DNA of 64,000 nt from Lathyrus oleraceus. Its lineage: Eukaryota > Streptophyta > Magnoliopsida > Fabales > Fabaceae. Shown here piece after piece: positions 1 through 49,743 of this stretch. The DNA lies in contig NC_066579.1 in assembly GCF_024323335.1 (NCBI RefSeq), forward strand, positions 130,185,354-130,249,353, read 5' to 3'. Position numbers and translations under genes: made by a program. The notes beneath the pieces were generated by a model, which worked only from the letters and a program-made list of their open reading frames with translations, had not been told where the DNA came from and ran no database searches. Every line of letters starts with the position of its first letter. Position 1 is the first letter of the stretch.

Positions 1-759
1 GTGTTGCCTAAGCAGATTCTGAAGAAGATTGATGTGGAAGGGTTTGTGCTTACTCCCAGTGACCTGATCGTTCGTGCTTTCGACGGCTCCAAACGTTCTG
101 TGTGTGGGGAAGTTACCTTGCCTGTGAAGATAGGTCCTGAGGTATTCGATATCATCTTCTATGTTATGGACATCCAGCCCGCCTATAGTTGTTTATTGGG
201 GCGTCCATGGATTCATGCAGCAGGGGCAGTCTCGTCGACTCTCCATCAAAAGCTCAAGTATGTCTGGAACGGTCAGATTGTGACCGTGTGCGGTGAAGAA
301 GAGATTCTGGTGAGTCATCTATCCTCGTTCAAATATGTTGAGGTGGATGGCGAGATCCACGAAACCTTATGCCAGGCGTTTGAGACTGTGGCTCTTGAGA
401 AAGTGGCGTACGCTGAGCAGAGGAAGCCAGGTGCTTCAATTACTTCTTACAAGCAGGCTAAGGAGGTTGTTGATTCTGGCAAAGCTGAAGGCTGGGGCAA
501 GATGGTGGATTTGCCTGTCAAAGAAGACAAATTTGGCGTTGGTTATGAGCCTCTCCAAGCAGAGCAGAATGGTCAAGCGGGTCCGAGTACCTTTACCAGC
601 GCTGGGCTGATGAATCATGGCGACGTCTCTGCAACCGGTAGTGAAGACTGTGACAGTGATTGTGATTTGGACAACTGGGTTCGCCCGTGTGCACCAGGGG
701 GGTCTATCAACAACTGGACGGCTGAAGAAGTGGTTCAAGTTACTCTTCTGACAGAGTAA
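1..759 (+). CDS. pol: Ogre-type pol: C-terminal part of aspartic protease and linker (first exon, partial)
   Basis: The frame is open from the window edge to a TAA at 757-759. The first 110 residues or so resemble the C-terminal half of a retropepsin-like protease, with a family-typical LLGRPWIH motif near residues 65-72. The catalytic D-S/T-G would lie upstream, outside the window. About 130 residues of acidic, weakly conserved linker follow. The stop is probably not used in the spliced RNA, because a GTAAT donor begins at 756, one base before it. The protein would process the Gag-Pol polyprotein in virus-like particles. The assignment rests on the LGRPW motif and the downstream RT. Confidence 0.75.
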   Translation: MLPKQILKKIDVEGFVLTPSDLIVRAFDGSKRSVCGEVTLPVKIGPEVFDIIFYVMDIQPAYSCLLGRPWIHAAGAVSSTLHQKLKYVWNGQIVTVCGEEEILVSHLSSFKYVEVDGEIHETLCQAFETVALEKVAYAEQRKPGASITSYKQAKEVVDSGKAEGWGKMVDLPVKEDKFGVGYEPLQAEQNGQAGPSTFTSAGLMNHGDVSATGSEDCDSDCDLDNWVRPCAPGGSINNWTAEEVVQVTLLTE

Positions 760-1005
760 TTTTCTGTTGTTTTTTCATTTTGCATGAAAATCCTACGATC
801 TGCCCAAGGCGTAGTGATTCATTGTAGGGCCTCATCATGTTTTAATGATTATCATTAATGAAGGACATTTTTTGCAATCAAACTTTGTGATCCCTGTCTT
901 TCTATTTTTTGTTTTCATCTTTTTCAAAACAATAAAAATGGCAATGTTTTTGTTTTTTGTGACTTTATTGAACTCTTTTTCTAAAACAAAGCATTAAACA
1001 TGCAG
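756..1005 (+). other. Probable spliceosomal intron between protease and RT of element A
   Basis: The 250 bp segment starts GTAATT and ends TGCAG after a T-rich stretch, and it is much more T-rich than its flanks. Removing 756-1005 joins the protease frame to the RT frame without changing phase: two bases of a codon remain before the donor and one is supplied after the acceptor. The TAA at 757 then falls inside the intron. Ogre elements are known to carry an intron at this place. The splice sites are predicted by eye. Confidence 0.7.
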
Positions 1006-2290
1006 AAGCGATCTTATGGCATTCACTATGAACAGTTCTGTTATGGCTCAGTATGATTTCGACAATCCCATCTACCAAGCTGAAGAGGAGAGTGAGGAAG
1101 ACTGTGAACTTCCTGCAGAATTGGTCAGATTGCTGAAGCAGGAGGAAAGGGTCATCCAACCTCATCAGGAGGAGTTGGAGGTTGTTAATTTGGGTACTGA
1201 GGACGCCAAAAGAGAAATCAAGATTGGGGCTGCTTTAGAGGACTCTGTCAAGAGGAGGCTGATTGAGATGCTGAGAGCATATGTGGAGATATTCGCCTGG
1301 TCATATCAAGATATGCCTGGGTTGGATACAGACATTGTGGTGCATCGATTACCTCTTAGAGAAGGATGTCCTTCGGTCAAGCAGAAGCTTCGTAGAACGA
1401 GTCCTGATATGGCAACTAAGATCAAGGAAGAGGTTCAGAAGCAGTGGGATGCAGGTTTTTTGGCTGTCACAAGTTATCCCCCATGGGTGGCCAACATCGT
1501 TCCTGTACCGAAGAAGGATGGAAAAGTCAAAATGTGTGTCGATTACCGGGATTTGAATAGAGCGAGTCCGAAAGATGATTTCCCATTACCTCACATTGAT
1601 GTATTGGTTGATAATACGGCTCAATCCTCGGTATTCTCTTTCATGGATGGTTTCTCTGGATATAATCAGATCAAGATGGCGCCAGAGGACATGGAAAAGA
1701 CGACATTCATTACACCTTGGGGCACGTTCTGCTATAAGGTGATGCCATTTGGGCTAAAGAATGCTGGTGCTACCTATCAGAGGGCAATGACGACTCTTTT
1801 TCATGACATGATGCACAAAGAAATTGAAGTGTACGTAGATGATATGATCGCGAAGTCGCAGACAGAAGAGGAGCACCTGGTTAATTTGCAGAAGCTGTTT
1901 GACTGGTTGAGAAAGTTCAAGCTGAGGTTGAATCCGAACAAGTGTACGTTTGGGGTGAGATCAGGGAAGCTTTTAGGCTTCATTGTCAGTGAGAAAGGGA
2001 TTGAGGTTGATCCAGCAAAAGTCAAAGCTATTCAAGAGATGCCTGAACCGAAAACGGAAAAGCAGGTCCGTGGGTTTTTAGGGAGATTGAACTACATTGC
2101 AAGGTTCATATCTCATCTAACAGCCACGTGCGAACCAATTTTCAAACTGCTTAGAAAGAATCAGGCGATCAAGTGGAATGATGATTATCAGAAAGCTTTT
2201 GACAAGATTAAAGAGTATTTACAGGGAACCTCCAATCCTTATACCTCCAGTTCCAGGGAGACCTTTGATAATGTACCTGTCAGTGACTGA
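1006..2290 (+). pseudogene. pol: Ogre-type pol: reverse transcriptase (frame broken at its 3' end)
   Basis: This is a Ty3/gypsy reverse transcriptase that copies element RNA to DNA in the cytoplasmic particle. The frame is open from 998 and the first ATG is at 1016. Visible motifs include PPWVANIVPVPKKDG, CVDYRDLNRASPKDDFPLP, FSFMDGFSGYNQI, MPFGLKNAGATYQR and the catalytic YVDD near residue 273 (about nt 1832-1846). The thumb motif LLGFIVSEKGIEVDP follows. At about 2223-2226 the true frame leaves this one: a run of three G after ACA appears to carry one extra base. The last 20 or so residues up to 2290 are therefore out-of-frame sequence. The RNase H and integrase part continues in the +1-related frame, so this copy probably cannot make an intact Pol. 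Confidence 0.88.
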
Positions 2291-4484
2291 GAACTCGATG
2301 GGGTGTGTATTGGGACAGCATGACGAGTCTGGTCGAAAAGAGCATGCCATATACTACCTTAGCAAAAAGTTTACCGACTGTGAAACAAGATATTCACTGC
2401 TCGAGAAAACTTGCTGTGCTTTGGCCTGGGCTTCTCGCCGACTGAGGCAGTATATGTTGAACCATACTACCTTATTGATTTCTAAGATGGATCCAGTGAA
2501 GTACATCTTTGAGAAACCGGCTCTCACCGAGCGCGTTGCTCGTTGGCAGATGATTCTAACAGAATATGATATTCAGTATACGTCACAAAAGGCCATCAAA
2601 GGTAGTATTCTGTCAGACTACCTCGCCGAGCAACCAATTGATGACTATCAGCCTATGATGTTTGAATTCCCTGATGAAGACATCATGTATCTGAAGATGA
2701 AAGATTGTGAAGAGCCTCTTGTCGAGGAAGGACCGGATCCTGATGACAAGTGGACACTGATGTTTGATGGGGCTGTGAATATGAACGGTAACGGTGTTGG
2801 GGCAGTATTGATCAATCCTAAAGGTGCTCATATACCTTTTTCTGCCAGATTGACGTTTGACGTCACCAACAACGAAGCTGAGTATGAGGCTTGTATCATG
2901 GGGATAGAAGAAGCCATTGATCTGAGGATCAAAACTCTTGATATATTTGGAGATTCAGCTCTAGTGGTCAATCAAGTCAATGGAGATTGGAATACGAATC
3001 AGCCGCATTTGATTCCGTATAGAGATTACACCAGAAGAATACTGACGTTCTTCAAGAAGGTGAAGTTGTATCATGTCCCCCGGGATGAGAATCAAATGGC
3101 TGATGCCTTGGCTACTTTGTCGTCTATGATCAAAGTTCATTGGTGGAATCATGTGCCACATGTTGCGGTGAATCGACTCGAGAGGCCTGCGTATGTGTTT
3201 GCAGCCGAGTCTGTTGTGGGTGATGAGAAGCCGTGGTATTATGACATCAAGAACTTCCTCAAGACTCAGGAGTATCCTGAAGGTGCGTCGAAGAATGACA
3301 AGAAAACCCTGAGGAGGCTAGCTGGAAGCTTCTATTTGAATCAGGATGATGTGCTGTATAAGAGAAACTATGACATGGTCTTGCTCAGATGCGTGGACAG
3401 ACCCGAGGCGGACATGTTAATGCAGGAAGTTCATGAAGGTTCCTTTGGTACTCATGCCGGCGGACATGCAATGGCTAAGAAATTGTTGAGAGCGGGTTAT
3501 TACTGGATGACTATGGAATCCGATTGTTTCAAGTATGCTCGGAAGTGCCATAAGTGTCAAATCTATGCTGATAAGGTGCATGTACCACCAAGCCCTCTGA
3601 ATGTCATGAATTCGCCTTGGCCGTTTGCCATGTGGGGCATTGATATGATTGGGAAGATTGAGCCTACTGCTTCGAATGGACATCGCTTCATCTTGGTTGC
3701 GATTGACTATTTCACCAAGTGGGTGGAAGCAGCTTCCTATGCTAACGTTACCAAACAAGTGGTTACCCGGTTCATCAAGAAAGAAATCATATGTCGTTAT
3801 GGAGTTCTTGAGAGAATCATCACTGACAATGGTTCGAATCTCAATAACAAGATGATGAAAGAGCTTTGTAAAGATTTCAAGATTGAACATCACAATTCTT
3901 CTCCTTACAGACCGAAGATGAATGGTGCTGTAGAAGCGGCGAACAAGAATATCAAGAAGATTGTGCAGAAGATGGTCGTTACGTACAAGGATTGGCATGA
4001 GATGCTGCCTTTCGCTTTGCATGGGTACCGTACCTCAGTACGTACGTCGACCGGGGCAACCCCTTACTCCCTTGTGTATGGTATGGAAGCTGTCCTACCT
4101 GTTGAAGTGGAGATTCCTTCTCTGAGAGTTTTATTGGATGTCAAGCTGGACGAAGCCGAGTGGATTCGAACAAGGTTTAACGAGTTGAGCCTTATCGAAG
4201 AGAGACGGCTAGCAGCTGTATGCCATGGACAGTTGTATCAACGAAGGATGAAGCGAGCCTTTGATCAGAAAGTGCGTCCTCGAAGCTATCAGATCGGTGA
4301 TCTAGTTTTGAAGAGGATCCTCCCTCCCGGTGCAGATAACAGGGGCAAGTGGACTCCTAATTATGAAGGTCCATATGTTGTGAAAAAGGTATTCTCCGGT
4401 GGAGCCTTGATGCTTACAACTATGGATGGTGAAGATTTTCCGTCTCCTGTTAACTCAGATGTAGTCAAAAAATACTTCGCATAA
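2178..4484 (+). pseudogene. pol: Ogre-type pol: RNase H, second RNase H and integrase
   Basis: The genuine coding part begins about 2226, after the frameshift; the beginning of this frame is out-of-frame RT. The order is: classical RNase H (about 2250-2640, with YYLSKKFTDCETRYS and ending DYLAEQ); a second, archaeal-type RNase H (about 2750-3130, with acidic residues in FDGAVN, NNEAEYEA, FGDSALVVNQ and DENQMADALA); and integrase (about 3400-4480). Integrase shows an HHCC finger ending CHKC, and catalytic D, D and E in WGIDMIG, ITDNGSN and NGAVEAANK. A GPYVV motif near the C-terminus matches the GPY/F module. The protein ends 10 bp before the first stem-loop of the 3' region. The tandem duplication breakpoint (2808) lies inside the second RNase H. 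Confidence 0.92.
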
Positions 4485-4493: not shown

Positions 4494-4700
4494 CTGGACA
4501 AAAAGAAAAAAAGAGTCCAGGCAAAAAAAGGGCATCCCGGCGAACCAAAAAACAGAAAAAAAGGTTCGGGCAAAAATTAGGGAATAAAATGAAAAGAATT
4601 TGTACACCCGGTAAGTCGAAAACCCGCAAGGGCGGCTTAGGCAAAAATGGGTATCCCGGTGGATTGAAAACCCGAAAGGGCGATCCAGCCAAAAGAGGGA
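4494..4700 (+). other. Four consecutive stem-loops, each followed by GCAAAAA-like or GCCAAAA text
   Basis: The stems are CTGGAC/GTCCAG (4494-4499 with 4515-4520), CGAACC/GGTTCG (4541-4546 with 4563-4568), TAAGTCG/CGGCTTA (4612-4618 with 4633-4639, one G-U pair) and GGATTG/CGATCC (4661-4666 with 4681-4686, one G-U pair). Each is followed at once by GGCAAAAA, or GCCAAAA for the last, and then a G-rich GGG..ATCCCGG-type linker. The stems are unrelated in sequence but all pair; loops are A-rich. They begin 10 bp after the integrase stop. A similar pair occurs in element B at 19967-20050. Confidence 0.7.
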
Positions 4701-5881: not shown

Positions 5882-6912
5882 TGATACCGGTAAGTGTCAT
5901 GCCAGCACCCACGTGTGTTTCTTTGTTTGGTGTCGGTAAACACCATTGTTTCGGTGTCTGTAAACATCGAGTCTCATTCCAGTCATCAGTAAATGTCTGG
6001 TCATCATTTTTGGTGTCGGTAAACACCATTGTTTCGGTGTCTGTAAACATCGGGTTTTCTCCCCAATCGTCGGTAAATGTCTGGTCATCATTTTTGGTGT
6101 CGGTAAACACCATTGTTTCGGTGTCTGTAAACATCGGGTTTTCTCCCCAGTCATCGGTAAATGTCTAGTCATCATTTTTGGTGTCGGTAAACACCCTTGT
6201 TTCGGTGTCGGTAAACATCGAGTCTTTTCTGCAGTCATCGGTAAATGTCTGATAATCCCCAGCTAGAGATCCCCAGTAGAGTCATCGGTAAATGTCCTAT
6301 CTGGTTTCCAGTTGCAAATATTTGTTTTTTCCCTTAGTGAAGTGTTCCCCGGTCATCGGTAAATGTCTGGTCATTTTTGGATGTCGGTAAACGTCATCTT
6401 TCGATGTCGGTAAACGTCGAGTCTCATCCCAGTCATCGGTAAATGTCTGGTCATGCTTTGTTTCCTTGTTGATAAAATCAAGACCCCCAGAAGTCGTCGG
6501 TAAACGTCTTGTCTGATTACACCACAAAGATTTTTTCCCCCAAAGTGGAGACGCCATCGGTAAATGGCCCTGTATGCTTCGATATCGGTAAATATTGAAT
6601 GCCCAGTTTTATCCGCCATCGGTAAATGGCCCCGTTTTCTTCGATATCGGTAAATATCAGATCCCCAGTTGCAGTAGCCATCGGTAAATGGTCGAGTTGA
6701 AGTTGATATCGGTAAATGTCAAGTTTCTTTGAAGCCACCATCGGTAAATGGTTTTGCTTCCTTTTACATCAGAAGTTGTTTCCCAGCAGCCATCGGTAAA
6801 TGGTCTTGCTGAAGTTGATATCGATAAATATCAAGTTACCAGTTTCTAACCATCGGTAAATGGTTTCGCTTTTCTGAAGTTGTCAATTGCAGGCGTCATC
6901 GGTAAGTGACGT
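5882..6912 (+). repeat. Array of about 30 short hairpins with constant CGGTAA loop
   Basis: The array is of 16-20 nt inverted repeats sharing the loop CGGTAA (a few CTGTAA, CAGTAA or CGATAA). Stems vary but stay complementary: GGTGT/ACACC, GCCAT/ATGGC, ACCAT/ATGGT, GATAT/ATATC, AACCAT/ATGGTT, CGTCAT/GTGACG. Another class is CAGTCAT/ATGTCTG and AAGTCGT/ACGTCTT, where one T-T mismatch is kept at the same place. Spacers are 15-40 bp of unrelated text. The reading frames across it, on both strands, only reflect the repeat. Confidence 0.9.
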
Positions 6913-7044: not shown

Positions 7045-8069
7045 TGTAGCACCTCAAATTTGCACTTATCATTGTACATACATTTTCATTATTAGGTCAT
7101 TAACATTTAACATAGTCCACTGCATAGCATTGCATTGTCCTTTGCCCCAAGTGCAAGTCATCAGAAGAATTAAGTCAAACTGGTCAGGAGATCAGTCAGT
7201 CAAGCAAGCAAGTACAATTTCCAAGGAGACAAAGCCCTAGGGTTGGTCCAACATGTTCACATGACTTGGGGATCCATTTGAAGTGTTTTGATCAAGGATT
7301 GGATGTTCAGAAGTCATCAGTCAATGCACAGTCAGTCAGAAACCCTAAAAAGTCAAACTTGGTCAACTGGGCTTGATTTTATGGTTTTGATGGTTGGATT
7401 TGGTTTGAGAGAGCTCATTCATGTCCAAATAGGCCTCATGTATCATGTCAAAGACCATTATTGAAGAATTGGAAGCCAAATCAGAAATTTCCAAAAATAG
7501 AAATTGGACCTGTAACTGAAACTTGCCAAAAATGGAAACTTCTTGATCCCAAACTTATATCATGATACAAGCTTCAAATGAATTTTTGCCCAACATGAAA
7601 GTTGAATATCTTGTTCTCCCATTTCCAAAAAGTCCAAGAACTCTGAATTCCCATGTATGGTTGGCAAGATATGATCAATTCATTTTCAAAAATTCTTGAA
7701 CTTCAAAAGGCCATATCTCTCAAACCATTTGGCCAAATTTGGTGAGGTTTTTTCCAACAAGCCACATTTGACCTCCTCTTTCCAAAAATGTAACCCTCAT
7801 GCACCAAAACCTCATGGATCAAAATGGCCTTTTTGAACTTGCTTGAATTAATTTCAAGTGAGGTTGAAATTTGACTTTTCCAAATAAACATTTCTAATCA
7901 TTTTGGCCAATTGGGAATGTCTTGAAATGTCATTTGAAACATGTTGGAAGGCCCATTTTAGTGCTCTTGCCATTACACCTCACCAGATGGACAAAAGTGG
8001 CCAATTAGCAACTTTGATTTTAAAAACAAAACATGATTAGCACCTTGCTTATGCAACCTAAAAAAGACA

Positions 8070-8077
8070 TATATAAG
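8070..8077 (+). promoter_or_regulatory. Probable TATA box of LTR A
   Basis: TATATAAG, about 1 kb into the LTR, followed by AAACCCTAGCAGCC-type leader sequence. A sensible U3/R promoter position, inferred from sequence only. The duplicate is at 29458-29465. Confidence 0.55.
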
Positions 8078-10329
8078 CACATTTTCTGCCAAAAGAAACC
8101 CTAGCAGCCACTGAAAACCAACAGAACATCTCATTTTTCTCTCAAACACCATTTTTCTCATTCTTGCATTTTCTGACCAAAACCTCAAAGGAACTCGAGC
8201 CTTGGTTAGTGTTGCATCCTTCATCATCATTATTGAACCATTTGCCAACCTCATTCCACAACTGTAAGGCTTTCTTCATGGACTGCATTAAAGGAGCTCA
8301 TCAATGGCAGATGTCGAGTTAAGCCATGTCAAGGGTTGCTGAGCTAAACTTTCTTCACCATTCACCTTGTGGAAGCTAGTGGAGCATCTGTTTTGAGCCA
8401 ATACATCCAAACAACACCTGTTTCATCATCTTCTTCAAGATCAAGTAAGTTTTCGAGTTTCTCTATTTACAAAACTATGCTATGCTTATGATAGAGTGTG
8501 TTGTGCTGGTCATTTTGAAACTTGAATCATTGAAAACGGTTGGCTATTATGAAATTTATGACGATTTAAAGTTTGTTGCTCCAATATGTTTTTGCTCGAT
8601 TCATGATGCTGGGCTTGATTCATAGAAAATGGCTTTTGGAATGTTGATGTGTGTGGTTTGCTGGTCATGATGATGCCTTCATTTCGAATTTCTGGAAAAT
8701 AATTTTTTTTCGAATTTGATTGATGAAGATGAAGCACTGTAGCGTACGAAACCCTAGCTTCCTGCCCAGAAACACGTTTCGCCCTTGCATTGCATGTTCC
8801 TCCCAATTTCTGGGCCATGAAACCAATGACCGGATGCCACCTCACCAATCGCTGCGCACCGTTTCACTTAAAGTTCCCAGGAATTACCAATATGCCACTC
8901 CACGTTTTAATATTTATTTAAGTCATATTATTTCTTCAACATTTGTTCCATTTTGATGCTCAACTTATAAAAATCATTGCGCACCCAATTTTAATCCAAA
9001 ATTCATGGGGTTTTTTGTGGAATGTTCATCTCCATCTCTAGTTTTTTATCATATTTTTGCCAGATTTTTTTGATGAGTGGTTTTTAAATTATGCTAGGGT
9101 TTTGTTCATGTGTCCATATTTTGTACCTTTTGCCAAAAACATTTGTGAAATAATGATGCTTTATCCAATGGCTCCCAAATTTTTTGTGCTTAAACTAGAC
9201 ACATTAATGGTGATTTTGGTGTGGAGTTTGTGAATTTATCATTGCTGGTTTGTGAGTTATTATTTTTTGAATTAGGGTGTGACAATTTGTGTCACACCAA
9301 TGATGTGCAACTTCTTGATTTTCTTTACCATGCCTCTTGACCTCAAATTGGATTGAATTTTTGCATGAACCTACTCTTGGATGTCTAGTTTACATGTGAA
9401 TTTTCTTGGAATTATTTGTGGCATTTCCTAATTGTTTGGGATTTTCTCCCTTGTTTGGTCTTATGTTGACTTTTTGTGACACATGTACCCATTTCATTTG
9501 TGAAATTCTCATACTTTATTGGATGGACATGAAATTTGATATGTGATTAGTAGACATCTTAAGCTTTGCCATGGTTTTGATCCCATTCATTTCTCATATG
9601 CTATCACTGAGTTATGAGTTTTTGAAGTTGATACATGTTTGGTTGACTTCTTTGAGCATGTTTGAACTTGCCTTGCCTTTCTGATTTTCATTGACCTACT
9701 TCCTATGATCCAATTGAGTTGAAATTTGGTGTGCTTACCATGCTATGGATTATGTTTGATCATGATTTATTTGATGATTTTTGGGATTGTTTATGATTGG
9801 TTTTGAGTTGAGTCTTGCTGTTAACTTCTATGGGCTTCTAAATGCCATGCTTTGACCTAATCTGTTCATGAAATGATGATGATGATTGATATGAACATGA
9901 AACCAATTGAGTTTGCTTCTTTATTGCTTGAACTTGATTTTGATTGAAATTCATTTGCTGTTTTGACTTTCTTATCTCTTTTTGACCCTAGGCTTGTCCT
10001 AGTGGTCATGTTGCTCATGTTTAAGTTTGTTGTTTCAGGTTAAGCAACAAATACCCAAAGAGACCATTTCTTTTTGATTGAGCTTGCTTGAATATCATTG
10101 ACTAACTTGTTTGTTTTGTAGGTGGCTTGGCTCACATGCCTTAAGCCTTATGCCTTGCACATCCATTTGCTTCTGATTAACTGTTGATGTCTGTTTCTTT
10201 TTGCTTTGTTTGAAGTTGTATACTAATGTCTGCTTGACTATCTCAGGTGCTTTTAGTTGCTCAGTTCCTTGTGAACTTTTGCTTTGCTTTGCTTGTATAA
10301 GAAATTTGCATTGAGGTATATTTCTCATC

Positions 10330-10760
10330 TTCATGTAGTCTGGAAGACCTGGCCTGTTACTTGGCCAGGCAACTGTCTGAAGTCCTCCTTAAGAGGCAAT
10401 GTTTGTGTATGTTTACAATTTGTCCCTGTACATATGCAAAGACCTCCTAAGTGAAGAGGCAATTGGCAGAACTCAAGGGATATGCAACCTATCCCCTGCT
10501 ATTCTGTGTGTCATCTGCTTTGCTCACATCACTGTGTTGATGCATTGCAGATGCAAACCCAAGATCTTGTACAATTGTACAGTTGAGTCAGTTTCAAATG
10601 TGTAGAGGGGTTCCCACTTTCTGAACCCACACATTCTTGTCTTAAGCTCTCCCAGGCCAGGGATAAGAGCTGTGAAGTCTCATCTTCACTCACCTTTCAT
10701 CTGCTTCACCTTAGCCCCTCAATGGCAAGGTTAAGAGCTAACACTACCCAGTTCCAGTGG
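10330..10760 (+). other. Run of perfect hairpins in LTR A
   Basis: A dense series of short perfect inverted repeats: CCTGGCC/GGCCAGG about an 8 nt loop (near 10347-10368), CCTC/GAGG twice, GGGATA/TATCCC about 7 nt (near 10477-10495), TGTACAATTGTACA (near 10568-10581), GGGTTC/GAACCC (near 10607-10627) and AGCTCT/AGAGCT. No coding sense is visible. The duplicate runs at about 31718-32147. Confidence 0.55.
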
Positions 10761-10862
10761 TTTGTTTGTTGAGGTTGATATGACCCCTCGACTAAAACCT
10801 GACCTTGTTTGAGCCCATTGCTTGCATATAGTGTGTGCTACTTGTGTTTGTGTGTTTGCTTT

Positions 10863-11006
10863 AGCTTGCTTCCTGTGCAAGTTAGGTTTAATTTGACTTG
10901 CTTCCTGTGCAAGTTAGGTTTAGTTTGACTTGCTTCCTGTGCAAGTTAGGTGTGGCTTGCTTCCTGTGCAAGTCATGACTAGGATAGGCTGGCTCCCTGT
11001 GCCAGT
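10863..11006 (+). repeat. Five tandem hairpins with TTCCTGT-type loop in LTR A
   Basis: Four units of (A)CTTGC-TTCCTGT-GCAAG(T) spaced 20-40 bp apart, then a fifth, CTGGC-TCCCTGT-GCCAG, in which both arms of the stem have changed together. The same loop word occurs in the hairpin array of element B at 21508-21940. Confidence 0.85.
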
Positions 11007-11120
11007 TAGCTAGAAACTTTAACTTAGGGACGATTTTGCATGATAACATCTAGGCTCGAGTCGTAGTCTCCCTAGTTGTGTCTCCCTCTGTTATCTGGTT
11101 AGGCTAGTCCTGTATCCCTC

Positions 11121-11197
11121 CGTAGGGGAACTACGTCGCCCTGATCCTCATACCAGATGAGGTACGTAGGCAGGAGATGAGCTGATCTCTCCGGGCG
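11121..11197 (+). other. Conserved multi-stem fold with GTAGGCAGGAGAT in LTR A
   Basis: A leading hairpin CGTAG-GGGAA-CTACG (11121-11135) is followed by an outer stem CGCCC/GGGCG (11137-11141 with 11193-11197). This encloses CCTCAT/ATGAGG, the invariant word TACGTAGGCAGGAGAT, and GAGAT/ATCTC. Element B has the same arrangement with different but complementary stems (16308-16388). Confidence 0.7.
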
Positions 11198-11228
11198 CCT
11201 GTGTCTTTGTTTTGTCTTGTTGTGTGCT

Positions 11229-11415
11229 TGGAAGCTGATGTAAGTCCATCGAGTGGCATTTGGGTTCCAGTGTGGGTTTGTTGGTTCGGATGCTGATGTA
11301 AGTCCAGTGATTGGCATTCAGGCTCCACGTTTGCCTCTTTGTGTGTGTTTTGGTTCAGATGCTGATGTAAGTCCAGTGATTGGCATTCAGGCTCCACGTT
11401 TGCCTTTGCCAGTGT
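11229..11415 (+). repeat. Three tandem repeats in LTR A
   Basis: Units of 55-70 bp built on GATGCTGATGTAAGTCCA, GATTGGCATTCAGG and CTCCACGTTTGCC. The first unit is diverged and the last two nearly identical. Duplicated at about 32616-32802. Confidence 0.8.
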
Positions 11416-38124: not shown

Positions 38125-38126
38125 GA

Positions 38127-38145: not shown

Positions 38146-39105
38146 TAGCTCAAAGCAAAAGAGAGTGAAGCCTAATTAAGTTCAGTTTTTGTATTGTGTT
38201 TTAATCTTGTTTGTTTGTCCGTTATTTTTATTTATTATTATTCTGTCATAATTATTATATTGTGATTTATTGACTATGTCTCATTTGGTGTTCTCTGGTT
38301 GGTGATACTTTGTGAGATAGGCTCTCCACCCGAGTCTGAGAAAAACCATAAGCTTAAGTTGGTGGTTGCGTAGTGGGCGCCCACAAGGAGTCTTCCTTGT
38401 TGGGAAGATACGAGGACCCCGCCTAGAGGAGATTCTCTTGAGATATTATTGTCCGACGAGTTTTCGTCACAACGATAGTATTCTCAAGTTGGATCAATGA
38501 CTCTAGGGACCTTTTAACCCACTCTATTCGGAGGTTATGTAGTATTAACCTACGAAGTTTCAGACTTGTTGGGTTAATACGAAAGCCCCAATCAGATGAG
38601 ATCCCTTGGACGTATTGCTATCTTACAATAATATTTCCAACCTCGATCTATGACTCTGAGAACCTTGTTAGAACCCTGGACTCAAGAGTCGTGTAGTAGA
38701 ATCCCCATGGAGCCTTCCTTGTTGGGACAATACGAAGACCTCACCTAGACGAGATCTTCTTAAGGATATTATTGTCCGGCGCGTCTTCATCACGGCAGTG
38801 ACGTTCTCAAGAAATATTTGTGACTCTAGGAACCTACCAACTGTAGAGCCTACCCCTGGGGTTACATTATTCAGAGATACCCGTCATTCACCCGTTATGC
38901 TGATCCATCTGAGAACACTTTGAACCTGTGATCCTAAACATGTCACTACCTTCATACACATATCATTGCATTTGCATTCATCATCATACATTTCATATCA
39001 TTTTCCACACAAAAATAAATACAAAAAACTCATCCATCCTTTGTCCATAACCCGCAGTTGAATTCCCGACACTCATATCGGACTTGGAGTAGCTCTTGAA
39101 AAACC
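38146..39105 (+). repeat. Leader of the complete element B with three imperfect repeats
   Basis: Duplicate of 16760-17720; the repeats run from about 38355 to 38845. Confidence 0.65.
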
Positions 39106-40650
39106 ATGGATCCATTGGAGCAAAATCACACTGCATTAAGGGGAGATGTTGACTCGATGAAAAACCAGGTAGACCAACTTGTGGAGGCTATGATAGCTTT
39201 AGGAAAGAGGGAGGACAACATTCAGCAGACTGCAGTCGTAGAGAATGTTATTCCAGCTCCAGTAAATGGTCCTACCCAACCTCAGCTTGTGTGAACCCCA
39301 ATTGATAACTCTATTATACAAGAACGTCATGTTGTTCAAGATCCCTGACGTGATGATGCTGTTGAGTATCACAGTTTTGCATTCTCCGTGCCAGATTGCC
39401 ATGGAACAAGCCTAGTGGTTAAGGCTGAACAACCACAAGATGATGAGATTGCTAAAAGATGTTGCGTGCTAGAGAAAGGACTCAAGGCCATAGAAAGGCA
39501 AGATACGGTTGAACTGAATGCCTTAGGCATGTGTTTGGTACTTGACCTGGTTATACCTCCAAAATTCAAAGCACCAGAATTTGAGAAGTACAGAGGGGAT
39601 GGCTGTCCAAAGCACCATTTGGTGATATTTTGTCGAAAAATGACCTCTCATGCCCACAATGATAAGTTGATGATTCGCTGTTTCCAAGACAGTTTGACTG
39701 GGGCATCATTAAGTTGGTACATGAAGTTAGAAAGGAATCATGTCCAATCATGGTTGGACCTAGCTAACGCATTCTTGAAGCAATACAAATATAATATGGA
39801 CATAGCTCCTAATCGCATACAGCTAAGAGCCTTATCTCAGGAAGACAATGAATCCTTTAGAAGGTATGCCCAAAGATGGAGAAAGTTAGCGGATTGCATT
39901 GAGCCACCACTCTTAGACAAATAATTGATGGAATTATTCAGGGACACCCTGCAAAGTCCATACTTCGAAAGGATGATTAGCAGCGCAGCATCAGACTTCG
40001 CTAACTTAGTGATAATTGGAGAACGCATCGAGAGTGCCCTAAAAAGTGGAAGAATCCAAGGCGCCTCGAGCAACCAAGCTAGCGAGACATAATACCTCAA
40101 TGATTCCCAAAAGGAAGAAGATGATGAAACAAATGCAGTCATGGCAGATGTTGGGTATTCTCACGATGCACCAGCCATACCTTATGGTTCTTCACCTTCT
40201 CAGTAATCACCATTTCCAACACCACGTTATCCTTATAGGAAAATGGCAAGGCCTAGAGCACCATTCAAGCAACCATGGACTGTTCCTCATACAAATCAAA
40301 GATCTCGTGGTCAAGGATATCAGAATCAACATCAGAACCAGCATAAGCCTCGAAACAATCTGGAAAGAAGGAATGCTCATCTCGATCCAATTCCTATGTC
40401 ATGCAGTCAACTTCTACCATATCTAATTCAAAGCTCGCTGGTGGAGCCCAAGTATCTCAGGCCATTGTCAGAACCATACCCACCTGGATATGATCCTGAT
40501 GTGCGATGTGGATATCATGCCGGAACAATAGGGCATTCAACTGAAGACTGCAATGCTTTCAAGGCTAAAATGCAACAATTGATCGACAAAAGGTACATAT
40601 CCTTTTCAGATGGAAGCCTGTTGGTGCACGTTAACCTCTCGTCAGAATGA
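39106..40650 (+). pseudogene. gag: gag of the complete element B, five internal stops
   Basis: Same single frame as 17721-19265, with stops at 39292, 39346, 39922, 40090 and 40204. Two substitutions are visible near the start of the second open stretch (Lys for Asn in VVNAEQ, and Ala for Ser before KRCCVLEKG). The capsid-like and knuckle motifs are unchanged. Confidence 0.85.
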
Positions 40651-42890
40651 GTTCAAAGATTTCATAGAGTATCTCCTAATGCCAGTAGTTCACACAGAAA
40701 GACATCCTCAACACTGGCAATCGTTGGACTGATTTCTTTCTATTTTTGCATTTGTAGTTTCTTTGTTGTTAAAAGCTGCTTGTGTTTAAACATTGTTTGT
40801 TTTTAATGGTAATATTGATGAAGTAATGATGCATGTTTTGAATTAATCATCTTGCATTCGCTCATCTTTCTTCTCTTATATCAAAAACAAAAAAATACAT
40901 CAGTGTTTCTCCCATTCACTTTTTTTTATCATAACTTTTGTTTTAGCAAAGATTGGAGGGAGGATGACGAAAACAAAATACCTATAATTGCTGACTGTAT
41001 GCTTTCGGATAAAATCCTGCTGATGATGTACAGGCATTGTTTCAAATCCCCAAACACTGGAGAGATAAGGAGTTAATCCCTAGTCAACCACTTCGAGCCT
41101 AGAAGTAGGATTTCTTTCGGATCTAAAAAACCCTACATTAAACTTGGGGCAGGGTAGTGTTCAGTTAATCTGACTACACATTCAAATTACAAGACGAAGC
41201 ATCCCGTTTGTAGATCAACCGCGTGATATTATTTGCACACATCCTGAAGCGTAGAAGGAATCAGGAAAAATCCAAAGGTTATGTTGGATTGTTCTTCAAA
41301 TGACCAATGACTTGGCAGTCACAATTCTAAAAAATAAAATAAAAAAGCCCGCTAAGTCGATACCCCAAAAGGAGACTTAGGCAAAAACCGGGGCAATCCC
41401 GATGGACTAAAGCTTCAAAAAGCGGTCCATGCAAAAGTTAGGGATCAAAACAAAAATCAAAGGAGGTCACGAAAACCCTCAACAAAATAAAAACAAGATT
41501 TAGTGACCACCATATCAAGAATCAAAGGGTCACCAATATCCATGAAGAGCAAAATAAAGTGTCTGTCATTTCAAGAGATCTTACACCTGTAAACTCTCTT
41601 AAAAGTTGAATGTGTATGGCGAATTAGCTAAGCATAGGACTGGAGTTTATCAAGAAGAAGGGTGGGTACAAAAACAATTTTGAGCCTCATATCCTTTGTT
41701 TTGATAACCGTGAACCAAGCCACGTTACAACCCTCAAAAGACCTAATTGAGGTAGGGTTATTTCCGAAGGCATATTACAGCAAAGTTGCGTAAACTGACT
41801 CCTAAAGATTTGCTAATATTCAACATCAATGTAATTCTTCTCACTGTGTCTTTCACACTTTAAATTGCTAAATCAGCATTACATTTGGACTCATGGTCCA
41901 CTGTCACATACTATCACATCATTCCAATAAATGATTCTTTTTCAAAACTTGCATGAATATCGCATTAAAATTACCATTTATAAGCGAACTATTTTAATTG
42001 CAATTCAGTACTCGACATCATTGAAATTTCAACAAAGAGCAACCAGTGGAACTTGATCATTCACCCGAATCAAAACTACCTCATAACCCACGAATCAGGT
42101 GCATGCCACCTAAACATCGGTTGATCATAGGAAGATTACTCCAAGAATTGGTCAGTCTTAAACAGTCTCCAACATCTGTTAATAAATGTGCAAATCATTT
42201 CAAGAATCAGTTGATCCAGAGCAAAGCATCTCAGGACTCTATTAACTAGGGGAAGACCACCTATAGGTTCTGTTGGCCAGGGGCAGACCCCTTCAATGTT
42301 CAGTTAGGGTGAGTTAAGTCGCTTCAACGCTCATACCGGGGCAAGCTACCTCAAGAGCACAGAAAAGTCAACCACTCAAAGAATCGATTAACCAAGGATA
42401 AATCCTTTCATGGATCAAAATTCTAGGGCAGTCCATCTCCAAATTATGGTACAATTGCTTTCAAAATCCTTTCGAGGTAAACGTTTTGCATAGACCCGTC
42501 ACATTGGGGCAAGATGAGCCATACAGGAGCAAGTCATCTCCCTTACTTCAAGTTGTTCAAGGGAAAGCTTTTTCACACGTCATCAACTGCAAAGTTCAAG
42601 ATGAGTGTCGGGGAATCACGCTATCACCCCATAAAATAACCTTTTGACAGACAAAAGCCTTTCAAAAAAAAAAAACCTTCTCTTCCAATACCCGCACATG
42701 GGCATTTTGGAAACCTTCCAATCATTACATAAATCATCATCATGCATTAGTCATGTCGCTTTGCTCTAGCATAAAGCCATGCATATCATATCATTTATCA
42801 GGCATAACCCATAACATGAACCTGACATCAAAAAGCCTTGAAACACAAAATCTGACACAAAAGCCCAACATCGCTTGGCCATTTCAAAAT
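40651..42890 (+). other. Non-coding region after gag, complete element B
   Basis: Duplicate of 19266-21507. The two GCAAAAA stem-loops are at 41352-41435. No pol remnant recognised. Confidence 0.6.
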
Positions 42891-43322
42891 CCAGTTCTCG
42901 TCTGGCAATTTATTTCAAAAAAAACCAGTTCCCGTCTGGCAACTTATTTCAAAAGCCCAGTTCCCGTCTGGCAAACCTTTTTCAAAAAACCAGTTCCCGT
43001 CTGGCAATTTATTTCAAAGCCCAGTTCCCGTCTGGAAATTTATTTCAAAGTCCAGTTCTCGTCTGGCAACTTATTCTAAAGTCCAGTTCCCGTCTGGAAA
43101 ACTATATCAAAAATCAGTTCTTATACGACAAATTATTTTCCAAATACCAGTTCTCGTCTGGTAAATTATCTCTTAATACCAGTTCTCGTCTGGTAGGTCA
43201 CCTATTTCGATACCAGTTCTCGTCTGGTAGCCTACTTTAAAAATCAGTTCCTGTCTGACAAACAAAAACAAATTCAGTCTCGTCTGACATTTCAATTATT
43301 TTCACCAGTTCGCGTCTGGTAA
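42891..43322 (+). repeat. TTCYCGT-loop hairpin array, complete element B
   Basis: Duplicate of 21508-21940 with the same unit order. Confidence 0.85.
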
Positions 43323-44000
43323 CATATCCTTCGAGTGTTGTCCTCATCTGGCAGTTCAATCTCCTTCACTAGTTCTCATATGGCAGTTCCCATTTAAAGT
43401 CCAACCTCATTGGCAATCAAGAATTAAACCCTACAAAAACATCCAATTACCCAGTTGCATTCCCACATGCATCACACGAATCATCCATACATGGTTTTCC
43501 TACCAAACAGAAAATTAAAAAACACAATCATATCAATCATCAGCATACTCATGCATAACACTCCCACAAAAGGGGAATTTCAACAAAATAAAAAAAAATC
43601 ATTCGCATTCCTATATGCACATCCAAATACCCCTAGCAATTGCATACTGCATACGTCTCATGCATCCTCCCATGCATAGTATTCCCACCTAAAGTGGGAC
43701 ATCATACAAAAATCAAATATAAAATAACAGGATCCAAAGTCATTCGTATATGTCTTGGGCATTCCTCATTTCCAAATGAAGTTATTACCTTACATAGGCT
43801 CGTAGGGTTATTTCTCAGCAAATCATTTTTCAACTTTTTTTAATAATGATATTCCCAGCATTTTTCTTTACAGTCATTGCTCCCCAAGCAGAGGTTACCC
43901 TAAAAAGTCTCTTATGAGCTTTTTCCCCTGCAATGAATTTTTAGTAAATCTCCCTCAAAAGGAGTCTTTTCAAAAAAATTCCCCCAACAGACGAATATTC

Positions 44001-45580
44001 GAGACACTACTTCATTTATCTGAAGAATCTCATTTATCTGTTCGAGATACTGCTTCATTTATCTGAAGAATCTCATTTATCTGTTCGAGATACTGCTTCA
44101 TTTATCTGAAGAATCTCATTTATCTGTTTGAGATACTGCTTCATTTATTTGAAGAATCTCATTTATCTGTTTGAGATACTGCTTCATCAATATGAAGAGT
44201 CTCATTTCAGATTTTTTAGAGATACTGCTCTAATATCCTCGGAGAGTCTTAGATTCAATTAAGGTATCTTTCCCTTGCTGGAATATCTTAATTCTATCAT
44301 ATAAGATGCTGCTTCGACTCAATACAGAGAATCTCATTTTTACTGTTTGAGATACTGCTTCATCAATATGAAGAGTCTCATTTCAGATTTTCTTTAGAGA
44401 TACTGCTCTAATATCCTCGAAGAGTCTTAGATTCAATCAAGATATTTTTCCCTTGCCGGAATATCTTAATTCTATCATATAAGATGCGGCTTCGACTCGA
44501 TACAGAGAATCTCATTTTTACTGTTTGAGATACTGCTTCATCAATATGAAGAGTCTCATTTCAGATTTTCTTTAGAGATACTGCTCTAATATCCTCGGAG
44601 AGTCATAGATTCAATGAAGGTATCTTTCCCTTGCTGGAATATCTTAATTCTATCATATAAGATGCTGCTTCGACTCGATACAGAGAATCTCATTTTTACT
44701 GTTTGAGATACTGCTTCATCAATATGAAGAGTCTCATTTCATATTTTTTTCTAGAGATACTGCTCTAATATCCTCGGAGATTCTTAGATTCAATTAAAGT
44801 ATCTTTCCCTTGCTGGAATATCTTATTTCTATCATATAAGATACTGCTTCGATTTGATACAAAGAATCTCATTTTGCTGTTTGAGATACTGCTTCATCAA
44901 TATGAAGAGTCTCATTTCATATTTTTTTAGAGATACTGCTCTAATATCCTCGGAGAGTCTTAGATTCAATTAAGGTATCTTTCCCTTGCTGGAATATCTT
45001 AATTCTATCACATAAGATGCTGCTTCGACTCGATACAGAGAATCTCATTTTTACTGTTTGAGATACTGCTTCATCATTATGAAGAGTCTCATTTCAGATT
45101 TTTTTCTAGAGATACTGCTCTAATATCCTCGGAGAGTCTTAGATTCAATTAAAGTATCTTTACCTTGCTGGAATATCTTATTTCTATCATATAAGATACT
45201 GCTTCGATTTGATACAGAGAATCTCATTTTGCTGTTTGAGATACTGCTTCATCAATATGAAGAGTCTCATTTCAGATTTTTTTAGAGATACTGCTCTAAT
45301 ATCCTCGGAGAGTCTTAGACTCAATTAAGGTATCTTTCCCTTGCTGGAATATCTTAATTCTATCACATAAGATGCTGCTTCAACTCGATACAGAGAATCT
45401 CATTTTTACTGTTGAGATGCTGCTTCATCAATATGAAGAGTCTCATGCCAGACTTTTTTGAGATACTGCTCTAGCATCCTGGAAAAGTCTTGAGATTTAG
45501 TTGAGGTATCATTCCATTACCGGAATATCTTGATTATGACATCCAAGATACTGTTCTGACGATTCCCAGAGAGTCCCGAC
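44001..45580 (+). repeat. 178 bp-period hairpin tandem repeat, complete element B
   Basis: Duplicate of 22618-24196. Confidence 0.88.
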
Positions 45581-45602
45581 TGTTTCATTTTACCTTTTTG
45601 AT

Positions 45603-45768
45603 AATTTTTCTTACTGTATTTCTCACTGCATTTTCTTTTTTGCATTTCTTCCTTGCATTTCAAAGGACAAAATTTGGGTCTTTTCGTATTTAATTACCTT
45701 CCACTACGAATGTATGAAGACTATTGTCATTCTTACCTTCTAGTTCAAGATAACGAAATAGGGGCAGC
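45603..45768 (+). other. End of element B internal region and polypurine tract
   Basis: Unique sequence absent from the truncated copy. It ends with CGAAATAGGGGCAGC (45754-45768) immediately before the 3' LTR; this is the polypurine tract. Confidence 0.8.
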
Positions 45769-48700
45769 TGTCATACCCCAATTTTGTCTAGGCATATTTA
45801 AATTTTTGTAAAATCGATTTCATTTTTAATTTGCATCATATACACAGCATGACATGCATTCCATCATAAATAATAACTAAAATATCAGTCATAAAATTTT
45901 TATTGAAAATACAGACAAACTGGTTAAATCATTTCCTCAAGTACGGACAAAATCAACGGATAAAAAGTTTTGAAATTAAAATTACAGGCACCAATATTAT
46001 TAATCTACAGTTCATGTAGTTTAACCTGGTATGTTCGTTGTATTTTTCAACAGCAGTTTCAGTTGCATTTTGACCCGCCTGAGCCTTTTAACCGGTGCAA
46101 ACTTATTTCAGAATTTGAAGAAACGCTATAATTTTTCAATAAGTATATTTTGTGCTGATCATTTTAGTGTGTCTGATTTAATTTTTTGAGCAAATTTTTA
46201 TCCGACTTATATTTATAATCGATCACTATTTTTGTTAGGTTAATTATTCAACTAAAATAATTAGAATTTATTCAAATCAAAATATTTATTAGAAATTTTA
46301 AATAGGAAATTCTAAATAATAGTGATTGTTTTTTAAAAAAAATTAGCATTGGATTCCTATTTGTTTTACAGCTGGTACCTAGCATACTCATTTCCCATCA
46401 CTACTTGGCCGCCCCATTTTTCAAAAACACATTTCCTCTCTCCCTCACGCTTCCTCTCTCTCACACTCACACGTTACCCTTCATTTTGAAAACACCATAA
46501 CACATTCTTTATATATTCATTTTTTTCTCTCTAATAGTAACCTTAAAACCACCCAATCTCTCTCAGCGAGAAAGAAAAAACAAAAGCAAAAACAGAGAAG
46601 CTCTTCTTCTCCACTTCACCCTTTCCACTCGCTATCACCAACCACCACTGTTACCTTCCGGCGCGACTAAATCAATGTCGCCGAAACCGTTCCGAACATC
46701 TCCACGACCATAAATCGTCCCTTACATCTTCTTCTCCAAAACGAAACGCCACCATCTCTTCCGACTCACCTACACAAAACATCTTTGATAACCACACATC
46801 CTCCGTTTCCGTCGCTCAACCCACAACCGCAACAACCTGACTCTCCCTTCCGTTAACCTCCAACGAACCAATTATCACGCCGACGAACGCAAAACGACAA
46901 CCTTCCTTCCGCCGCGGTTCACACCGGAAATCTTCACCGCCGACATCCTCGCCAACACACATTCAACCATTGGAAGCTCGGAAGAGGAAGGAGAAGCGAA
47001 ATCTGACGAAAACATCTCATTTCCGGGTCCAGTCAAAATTGCTAAAAGGGAATACGGAGATTTTCGTGAATCAAGTTGTGTATTTCTGTTGAGTATTCCA
47101 TTTGCAGGTTGGAAATTGGCTATGGTTATGGTAGTTGATCTTGAAGCATGAAGTGGTAACGATTCGCGAAGGTAACGACTCAAAACTAATTCTTATGATG
47201 TATGATGTTGTTTCTTGCTTCGATATGTATTTGTGATTACCGATTCATTTGCACTGTGTTTGTTGAATTTGTTGGGTATTTGAAGCTTTATGATAAGCTT
47301 GTAAATAATATTACCTCATGTAGCTACTGAAATTTTTGTTTTGTTTTAATTTAGTGTAGCCTTGTTCAACTTAGAAAGAAAATTCATTCATAAAGTAAGA
47401 AAAGAAATTTTGAGAAAAATGCCCATATTCATTTTCCTTTTGTAATGTGGATTTGAAGCATAAACATATATAATATTCTGTTATGTTATTGTATGTTAAT
47501 TGATGGTGATGCTTAGTCAATGCTCATATTCATTTTCCTTTTGTAATGTGGATTTGAAGCATAAATATATATATTATTCTGTTATATTGTGATTGTATGT
47601 TAATTCATGGTGATGCTTATTAAGTGGCTTAATTTATGGTGATGCGGTTTTGTGGTAGCTTCCATTTGTAAATTGGCACCGGAAGTTACCTCACATCGTG
47701 GTGATGATTATTCCAGCATAGTCTTTATGATTATGTCACTAAATAGTAATGTTCTTGTTTGAATAATTATAAGTATGTACTTAATTTCTATTTATTAGTA
47801 TTCAAGTTCTTCTTATCTCTTTCATTATGAACATTCCAAAAAGCACAGCCACGTAAATAATATTTCATTTCACGAATAAGTCTGAAGCATGGCCACGTAA
47901 ATAATTCAATTGCGTATGAGCATGTTTATTCTTTCACTTTTTGTAGCCAAATGCATTTGATTTTTATTATTTCATTTATTTATTTTGGTGCAACTATTTA
48001 AACAAATGGATAATAATTAAATTGATATATTCAAATATATTTAAAAAACTTAGTCCAATATCAAATGATCCATTTTTAATCCCGATTTAAATTCGATCAA
48101 CCGTGCAAATTTTAAAACCTCGATCCGACATCGAATATTCTTTATAAAAGTTAAATTAAAATACTTAATCACATTTAAACAACACTTAATTTGAAAATGA
48201 AAAGGGGGATGGTTTTGAGTTTTCAACTCCTCTCCTCGATTATTTGAATACGAGTTTTCTTACTCGGTTAGTCAAATAGTCGGCATTTCTAATCCATTTA
48301 AGCACAAACAAATCAAATCCTTTTATAACAAGAAACCAAAAGGGAGATAACTTTGAGTCTTCAATTTTTTCTCCACGACTATTTGAATACAAGTTCTCTT
48401 ACTTGGTTAGTCAAATAATTGTCGTTCCTCTACAAATTTCTAAACCCCGATTAAATCAAAATATTTTCACAATAAGCTAAATGAAAAGGGAGTTGACTTT
48501 GAGTTTTCAACTTCACTCCTCAGTTGGTCGAATACGAGTTCTCTTACTCGGTCAGTCGAACAACTGTCATTTTTCCACAAACATACAATTTAATCAAACC
48601 ATTTTCATAACAAATTATGTGAAAAGGGAAATGACTTTGAGTTTTCAACTTCTCTTCTCAATTGTTTGAATACGAGCTCTCTTACTCGGTCAGTCGAACT

Positions 48701-49743
48701 ATTGTCATTTTTTTGCTAACTCACACTGTAAGTCAAATCGCTTTCATAATAAACTGTACGAAAAGGGAGATGGTCTTGAGTTTTCAATTCCTCTTCTCAA
48801 ATGCTTGGATATGAGTTGTCTTACTCAACCATTCAAATACTTGTCGTCTATTCTAAAAATACCAACCATATGAAAATTGGGATACGAGTTGTCTTACTCG
48901 ATTATCCGAGTATTCGTCATCCATTCAAAACACCTTAATCATCATTAAAATCCTTTTACAATTAAGGATGAAAAAGAGAGTGGTCTAGAGTCTTCTATTC
49001 CCTTTCCCGATTATTAGGATACGAGTTGCCTTACTCGAATATCCGAGTAATCGTCATCCAACAAAATTTCTCAACACATCAAATATATCTTTCTCGCCCC
49101 CGTGCGATCAAAACCAATCAAACAAAACATACCACATAATTTATTCAACTTGTCACCCCCGTGTGACCAAAACTATTTTCAGAAAGAACAATGTTAATCC
49201 TTTCTAATGCGCACAACAAACTAGTGTTTAAGCCACCGCCGAGAGAAGACAAGCCAACGTTTAGCCTTTAGAACGCGATCTAAATAGATGTTCGGTAAAA
49301 GACACCAACCAACATTAGTTCCTGGAACTACGAATGCTCTGATTTCCTTATTTAAGGATACGTAGGCAGGAGATTGCTGTATCTTCGCGAGCATACTAAT
49401 AAAAAACCTCCCTTTTCCCTTTCAGAGGTTCCCATCCATTTCTATTTTCAATATATTTATAACCCAAAGATAACAAACAAACATAAATTAACACTCGAAA
49501 CGCAAATTAGAACTAAAAGGTTCCCGTTGAGTACAACGGACGTAAGGGGTGCTAATACCTTCCCCTTACGTAATCCACTCCCGAACCCGAATATGGTTGC
49601 GACGACCATTATTCCATTTCCTAAAGGTTTTATCGATATTTTCCTATCCCTTCATTGGGATAAATAAAGTTCGGTGGCGACTCTATTCAAACTTAATTTT
49701 TTCCGCGACCATCGCGAGGAATCGTATTTTTCGAGATGCGACA
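45769..49743 (+). repeat. 3' LTR of element B (3975 bp)
   Basis: The same LTR as 12697-16738 and 34084-38124 but more diverged, with many single-base changes and a deletion of about 65 bp near 48869 that removes part of one 135 bp repeat. CGTAGTTC became TTAGTTCC with a matching GGAACTA arm (fold at 49314-49394), and the TGCTAATACCTT hairpin is at 49540-49571. Confidence 0.92.

Follow-up and report, generated by a model that had tools for sequence, protein, structure and literature searches.

Element A and element B, two long terminal repeat (LTR) retroelements, lie in a stretch of 64,000 nucleotides of the Lathyrus oleraceus genome (assembly GCF_024323335.1, contig NC_066579.1, positions 130,185,354 to 130,249,353 of the forward strand; the window). 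An earlier note on this DNA had described at least seven independent series of short hairpins in their LTRs and 3' regions, with constant unpaired bases and varying paired bases, which raises the question of what keeps a loop constant while its stem changes. In the best reading, selection preserves loop sequence and pairing, and not the stem sequence, in the sense transcripts of Tat/Ogre-type LTR retrotransposons, and the hairpins are very probably sense-strand RNA structures under selection. This reading has two layers. The first consists of three modules that many families have in common, with nearly constant loops and joints and covarying stems; M1 and M2 precede a polyA-like signal in the LTR, and M3 directly follows pol. 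In the second, short hairpins with a common loop form an array within a cassette that separates pol from the 3' LTR; the loop differs by family. What was observed directly is the covariation, the correspondence in position and the presence of different loops between flanks that are shared.

Covariation in the CGGTAA array

The strongest hairpin series in the window is the CGGTAA array of element A (Table 1). Its 14 distinct 5-bp arm pairs paired in 66 of 70 cells versus 55.5 with swapped arms, and none of 20000 swaps reached the observed value. The cells comprised 58 Watson-Crick, 8 G.T, 1 A.C and 3 other combinations (swapped: 40.3, 15.2, 7.6 and 7.0). At stem lengths (k) of 3 and 4, 77 and 1 of 20000 swaps were as good. 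For a tree-aware null, substitutions were re-placed on a neighbour-joining tree of 28 distinct 34-mers; in 1000 runs neither the pairing of the first five pairs (131 of 140 cells, null maximum 124) nor their summed mutual information (2.51, null maximum 1.14) was attained. A strict scan for exact loops with Watson-Crick stems, which misses degenerate loops, recovered CGGTAA and one poly-T loop in the copia-bearing flank.

Thirty of 40 scored genome copies of the array were taken and the window's own two (L001, L002) omitted. The remaining 28 copies, in which a unit had to match the loop in at least 3 of 6 places, contained 25-40 units each and 295 distinct units. Compared to the nearest reference unit, 10.7 % of the flank sites, 4.6 % of the loop sites and 2.9 % of the stem sites were changed. 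Not one of the 80 changed stem cells was two-sided; 61 ended paired, including 17 new G.T pairs, and 18 lost their pairing, 11 of them by becoming A.C. Since two-sided changes were absent and 18 pairs broken, whereas the units covary among themselves, recent change is not visibly corrected and long-term change between units is compensated.

Module M2 at the LTR end

The loop TGCTAATACCTT turned out to be the loop side of helix P3 within a larger LTR module, M2, which occurs once per LTR end and not as a tandem repeat. Between M2 of A (70 bases) and of B (69 bases) 10 paired positions had changed, all in two-sided changes without a broken pair, and 18 of 200000 permutations were as good. A wider and independent sample came from 20 other 10-kb stretches of the same genome, chosen by position and not by content. 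The M2 loop word alone matched 12 times in these stretches. A looser rule listed 24 places, 14 of which were aligned, giving 12 distinct rows; omitted were two window duplicates, two chance matches on the minus strand of the window, five stemless matches in the satellite of stretch L048, and L035, which keeps P3 and lacks P2. A copy truncated at the end of L040 was outside that list.

Across the 12 rows, hairpin P2 was paired in 98.6 % of the cells and had two-sided changes in 4 of its 6 pairs; P3 was paired in 93.3 %, with such changes in 5 of 10, which makes 9 of 16 pairs together. The whole module paired in 89.7 % of the cells, versus 79.9 % in shuffles (0 of 500 as high) and 39-44 % in controls with the partner slid by 1-3 columns. 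The tree-aware null matched P2 pairing, P2 mutual information and P3 mutual information in 0 of 1000 runs each. P2 and P3 held 12 G.U and no A.C cells, and none of 5000 shuffles had so few A.C; an excess of G.U over A.C is usable as a sign of RNA-level selection for M2, not for the arrays. The loops are near-constant rather than invariant, AGTA being replaced by ATAA in L031-type copies. Folding z-scores were -1.24 for A and -1.13 for B. The outer stem P1, compensated between A and B but without support across families in the tree-aware null, was rejected as a covarying helix.

A mutational process in which hairpins act as templates for correcting themselves, at reverse transcription or in DNA repair, could produce perfect stems without selection, and the variation from 25 to 40 units between array copies indicates a mutationally active region. 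Such a process would not be expected to leave loops constant next to diverged spacers, as the flank and loop rates above show them. The lack of two-sided changes and the broken pairs in the other array copies, the retention of G.U without A.C in M2, and the solitary position of M2 argue against it as well, and we regard it as very unlikely. Among the options of the earlier note, self-templating mutation thus fits poorly, and the data agree best with landing arrays for proteins or signals for packaging.

Different loops in the same slot

Other loops were found by scans of the wider sample. An exact-loop scan of the 20 stretches yielded three loops, RTTCAG in two spellings (L047) and TAACGTAC (L045); from ten shuffled versions of the 200 kb together, 3 loops were obtained. 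A scan with one wildcard and no preset loop covered 27 sources on both strands. Six of the 54 source-strands (from L040, L045, L047 and the 3' region of A) had at least five distinct stems on one loop, a number found in none of five shuffles; at least four stems were present in 10 of 54, versus 0, 1, 0, 1 and 2 in the shuffles. The low variation among its stems kept the array of B from being detected by these unbiased scans. Arm swaps equalled RTTCAG (L047) in 0 of 20000 cases at k=3 and k=4 and in 6 at k=5, and TARCGTAC (L045) in 639, 1 and 0 at k=3, 4 and 5. L040 and L047 share RTTCAG and are 92-94 % identical over the three longest pieces. Blocks of the 3' region of A match L047 on either side of the RTTCAG array (76.5 %, 87.0 % and 77.7 %), and shorter blocks match L045 around the TARCGTAC array (67.9-86.1 %); related families therefore carry different loop words in one slot. 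Some loops in A, L045, L047 and M2 look like splicing signals (GGTAA, TTCAG, CTAAC or CTAAT), possibly as spliceosome decoys or by coincidence.

Arrays of this design resemble multiple packaging signals. Satellite tobacco necrosis virus has many stem-loops with a common loop and a free stem, as in the CGGTAA, RTTCAG and TARCGTAC arrays; its coat protein prefers the loop ACAA in assembly and is indifferent to the stem (PMC3593212). Enterovirus and hepatitis B virus are further cases (PMC7793301, PMC7612645). The Ogre array differs from the viral signals in being clustered in one cassette, with a family-specific loop. The hairpins may serve as docking sites for an RNA-binding protein that the element itself encodes, most likely for Gag when the RNA is packaged, a role that we propose tentatively. 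An element-encoded protein is likelier than a host factor because the loops differ between families within one host genome, and Gag is the obvious candidate since it must choose its own RNA. The array loops would act as multivalent binding sites, and the array would tag and condense the RNA of its own family for packaging; M1 and M2 could be leader or terminal structures for packaging, dimerisation or reverse transcription.

Alternatively, host proteins might read the repeated 3' loops as signals for RNA export or nuclear fate, which would help intron-containing RNA to leave the nucleus, much as constitutive transport elements of simple retroviruses bind NXF1/NXT1 and export unspliced RNA. The arrays are placed suitably between pol and the 3' LTR, and the published drawing of Gmr9, an Ogre of soybean, includes a gag-pol intron (PMC3305785). 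Constitutive transport elements and Rev response elements are likewise cis-acting structured RNAs with additive copies, four copies of the former outdoing one (PMC4829213). In contrast to these, the loops of Ogre-type elements differ between families in one host, which is odd for a single host factor and makes export signals unlikely.

Module M1 and RNA-RNA contacts

From 39 loose matches to M1, 17 were kept; two window duplicates and, by eye, 20 without the arrangement were omitted. A further M1-like match on L047 lacks the 5' part. CTACG is invariant and TACGTAGGCA has few changes, and all three stems paired better than any of 20000 arm swaps: hp1 in 42 of 45 cells (30.9 swapped), P1 in 73 of 80 (62.0) and hp2 in 75 of 75 (66.3). 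For P1 and hp2 the best placement was chosen, alike in data and null. M1 is repeated two to three times close together within one LTR, with different stems per copy, in L034:4998-5480, L040:4177-4381 and L046:1576-2185. Folding z-scores were -3.66 for M1 of B and -1.53 for its copy in the 3' LTR. In the LTR of A, TATATAAG is present at 8070; if it is a promoter, M1 and M2 would sit at both transcript ends.

CTACG is complementary to YGTAG in most M1 copies, and both are nearly invariant; their pairing would create a pseudoknotted three-way junction, a topology reminiscent of exonuclease-resistant viral RNAs. Across the M1 copies this pairing showed no covariation. Loops or joints might base-pair with other RNA molecules, or link two genomes, and so serve dimerisation or the placing of the primer. 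Kissing loops also predict conserved loops on free stems, TARCGTAC includes the self-complementary ACGT, and the complementary words of M1 would suit such contacts. CGGTAA, RTTCAG and TTCYCGT are not self-complementary, and the M1 words do not covary; RNA-RNA contacts are thus a quite unlikely explanation for the hairpins.

Module M3 after pol

Nine GC(C)AAAA sites are present in the 3' regions of A and B. Six of them (4521-4688 and 19996-20046) have a stem of 6-7 bp with a span of 26-30 directly 5', compared to a background of 0.8-1.4 %, the span having been chosen after the sites were seen. The sites at 5024, 5087 and 20164 do not fit. A looser rule listed 75 matches, mostly chance (background 190 of 4000), of which 13 were judged genuine by eye: six in the window, one in L031, two in L045, three in L047 and one in L049. 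Their 10 distinct 6-bp stems comprised 55 Watson-Crick, 5 G.U and 0 A.C cells, a count that is no test because the hairpins were found by requiring pairing. Searched by the motif CAAAA[AG]?TTAGGG only, 12 sites were obtained; a stem of at least 6 bp preceded five, one of 5 bp preceded another, and the six satellite copies of L048 had none. The L048 satellite (1562-3510) is a tandem repeat with a period of 387 bases that contains CCCAAAATTAGGG and lacks the M3 hairpin.

Weak series and hairpin density

The remaining series were less convincing. For TTCCYGT in B alone, arm swaps were weak evidence (6639, 407 and 244 of 20000 as good at k=4, 5 and 6); the result improved when the units of the A LTR were included (331 as good at k=4, 6 at k=5). 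The joining of the TTCCYGT hairpins of the A LTR and the B 3' region into one family was rejected: two such hairpins occurred in the 20 stretches, with about 0.9 expected by chance. Among the primary matches listed, the TTCYCGT array of B recurred at 38 other places of the genome with 92-97 % identity. The ACTG/A bulge was called in 20 units with 8 distinct combinations, mostly near-identical repeats, and the two CCCCGT stem-loops per B LTR are too few for a test. Two compensated inner-stem changes were seen in the 137-bp units, seven per B LTR. TTCCYGT, ACTG/A and CCCCGT each carry little covariation on their own.

The claim of seven independent series was hence overstated. CGGTAA, TGCTAATACCTT and GCAAAAA, the latter at six clustered sites, are confirmed as constant-loop series, and positions 24215-45605 are a tandem copy. 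The central observation of the note was borne out for most of its series and withstood the refuting test that the note had set. Covariation with fixed unpaired bases exceeded arm swaps, column shuffles and the tree-aware null, and the hairpins recur at corresponding positions in other copies and families.

Hairpins do not, as had been supposed, make up much of the non-coding bulk. The LTR counts were near the shuffled values (A 136 versus 119.3, standard deviation (sd) 13.6; B 135 versus 121.2, sd 13.1), and mean folding z-scores of LTRs and 3' regions ranged from -0.18 to -0.89 (3' regions of A and B: -0.41 and -0.89). Strict hairpin counts in the 3' regions were 77 versus 54.4 (sd 8.9) for A and 211 versus 133.3 (sd 13.1) for B; an excess was also found in A pol (131 versus 96.3, sd 12.2) and in the copia-bearing flank (724 versus 457.1, sd 26.0). 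Folding z-scores were considered as main evidence and set aside, because they are weak and uneven.

Ordinary tandem repeats with functionless chance palindromes may account for the ACTG/A array, and ACTG/A and CCCCGT add little in any case. Such repeats are common and family-specific in the 3' regions of Ogre/Retand elements and a source of plant satellites, and their function is called unknown (PMC3305785, PMC11963269, PMC7004042). The minisatellites of Gmr9 and the Lathyrus satellites likewise lie between pol and the 3' LTR and vary in unit number; the accessible parts of these papers treat them as tandem repeats, without hairpins, constant loops or covarying stems. For CGGTAA, RTTCAG, M1 and M2 chance palindromes are already disfavoured: covariation exceeds arm swaps and tree-aware nulls, also in the single-copy module M2. 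As a general explanation they are highly improbable.

Evidence against selected RNA structures

Several observations weigh against selected sense-strand structures with a packaging role. Folding energies are only mildly better than shuffled, M1 of A has a z-score of -0.02, and for the CGGTAA array the minus strand has the better folding score (z -1.16, against -0.73 for the plus strand). In the arrays the ratio of G.U to A.C is unconvincing throughout: it is 8:1 in CGGTAA with about 2:1 expected from swaps and 17:11 among recent changes, and at k=4 it is 2:2 for RTTCAG and 1:2 for TARCGTAC. In M2, P3 pairing alone is unexceptional in the tree-aware null (111 of 1000), and P1 fails it for pairing (572 of 1000; information 39 of 1000) and has 3 A.C and 0 G.U cells; in total, the M2 pair types are within the shuffle range (288 of 500). 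The arrays in A, L047 and L045 are clustered, whereas viral packaging signals are dispersed. Support comes from sequence comparison.

Elements and layout of the window

The Pfam domains of the A pol open reading frames (ORFs) are RVT_1, then RT_RNaseH, RVT_3, Integrase_H2C2 and rve. One ORF holds RT_RNaseH (26-130), RVT_3 (196-313) and rve (482-579), and a second RNase H between RNase H and integrase is the order in Ogre and Retand (PMC6317226). Element A fits the Tat clade (Ogre/Retand) of Ty3/gypsy by this domain order, and its tandem repeats between pol and the 3' LTR are a further feature of that clade. Element B probably lacks pol, because between its 5' LTR and 24215 there is no ORF of 200 amino acids; 14 ORFs have 60-178. 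Its LTRs are 96.9-97.7 % identical in the aligned pieces, and GGTAG on both outer sides is the target duplication. The flank between A and B (11690-12690) appears by eye to be a non-LTR (LINE) reverse-transcriptase fragment, into which B inserted.

Table 1 Features of the window and of two further stretches (L045, L047)
Feature	Position	Strand	Remarks
A pol	1016..4484	+	reverse transcriptase in ORF 1016-2290; RNase H, second RNase H and integrase in ORF 2178-4484
A 3' region	4485-7044
M3 of A	4494..4695	+	four hairpins, each then G(C)CAAAA; stems CTGGAC, CGAACC, TAAGTCG, TGGATTG
CGGTAA array of A	5882..6911	+	30 units, loop C-N-R-TAA, varying stems
A 3' LTR	7045..11681	+	TGTAGC...GATGCGACA; read from sequence
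TTCCYGT hairpins, A LTR	10865..11006	+	five; stems CTTGC (4), CTGGC (1)
M1 of A	11126..11200	+	CTACG, stem P1, TGAT, hairpin hp1, TACGTAGGCA, hairpin hp2, P1 partner
M2 of A	11477..11546	+	stem P1, hairpin P2 (loop AGTA), hairpin P3 around TGCTAATACC
PolyA-like GGGATAAATAA	11613		after M2 of A
B 5' LTR	12697..16738	+	GGTAG target duplication
137/138-bp units	15166..16045	+	seven; inner stem around loop YNYCTT, outer stem
M1 of B	16316..16390	+
M2 of B	16513..16581	+	versus A five two-sided changes, zero broken
Candidate primer binding site of B	16741..16758	+	by position after LTR
M3 of B	19967..20053	+	two hairpins, each then GCAAAA; stems CTAAGTC, ATGGACT
TTCYCGT hairpin array of B	21508..21945	+	stem mostly CCAG/CTGG
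43-bp and 178-bp tandem array	22615..24180	+	ACTG/A internal-loop hairpins
Tandem duplicate of 2808-24223	24215..45605	+	99.5 % identity
Copies in the duplicate			A array (exact CGGTAA first 27297, last 28288); M2 of A 32864; M2 of B 37899
B 3' LTR	45769..49743	+	contains M1 49322-49396, M2 49519-49587
RTTCAG array	L047 3933-4326	minus
TARCGTAC array	L045 1753-2354

The 21.4-kb tandem duplication extends from within the RNase H coding part of A to just past the 178-bp array of B, with TTGAT at all three breakpoints; it may be a real duplication or an assembly effect. Hairpins in 24215-45605 are not independent, being part of this tandem copy, and should be counted once only. Inside the LTRs, just past the polyA-like signal, GGTGGCGRCTCTG (11629-11641 and 16668-16680) forms a second primer-binding-site-like copy, similar to the first bases of the sequence that follows the B LTR, TGGCGACACTGCTGGGGA (16741-16758). 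A copia-type element on the minus strand (50600-55383) encodes gag, integrase and RVT_2 (Pfam) and ends in 209-bp direct repeats of 97.6 % identity.

A search by conserved words gave no relatives in viral contigs or prokaryote genome contigs, and the A protein with RNase H and integrase had no match among viral contigs. Rfam gave no match at the curated threshold for window positions 1-24215 on both strands with E up to 5; the sole sub-threshold match, SNORD49 (13898-13955), lies outside the hairpin modules.

Significance for Ogre-type retrotransposons

Structured RNA has been described for other LTR elements. Among non-autonomous plant LTR elements, large retrotransposon derivatives and terminal-repeat retrotransposons in miniature (Cassandra, 5S) are described as having non-coding RNA with well-conserved secondary structure; the Cassandra structure derives from 5S RNA, and the accessible part of the source does not mention fixed-loop arrays (PMC7215508). 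The genomic RNA ends of Ty1 and Ty3 are structured and tied to reverse transcription and Gag binding, and their packaging sequences are described as not precisely defined (PMC4974528). Searches of mostly open-licence papers brought up no account of hairpin arrays with fixed loops in Ogre/Tat elements, nor of covariation in their LTRs, and a search with sequence words gave no retroelement papers in the best 20 of 122 matches. The tandem repeats between pol and the 3' LTR are already known; the loop-constant, stem-covarying hairpins did not turn up in these searches and are probably new in this respect.

With less confidence than the proposed Gag role, Ogre-type elements can be pictured as carrying an exchangeable RNA address cassette, one slot between pol and the 3' LTR with a family-specific loop word that the family's own protein reads. 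The words would be CGGUAA, RUUCAG, UARCGUAC and perhaps UUCYCGU, with the loop read and the stem not. RNAs of many co-resident families would be distinguishable, because each family's protein would read its own loop. If this is true, the loop word differs from family to family within a constant array design, and both the hypervariable 3' repeats and the satellites derived from them are by-products of the address system.

If the 3' repeats are taken as loop-constant arrays under pairing selection, the question of their function becomes directly testable. M1 and M2 would supply signatures by which the RNA of many families could be recognised together, and they could be a point of departure for studying how the RNA of plant retrotransposons is selected and reverse transcribed.

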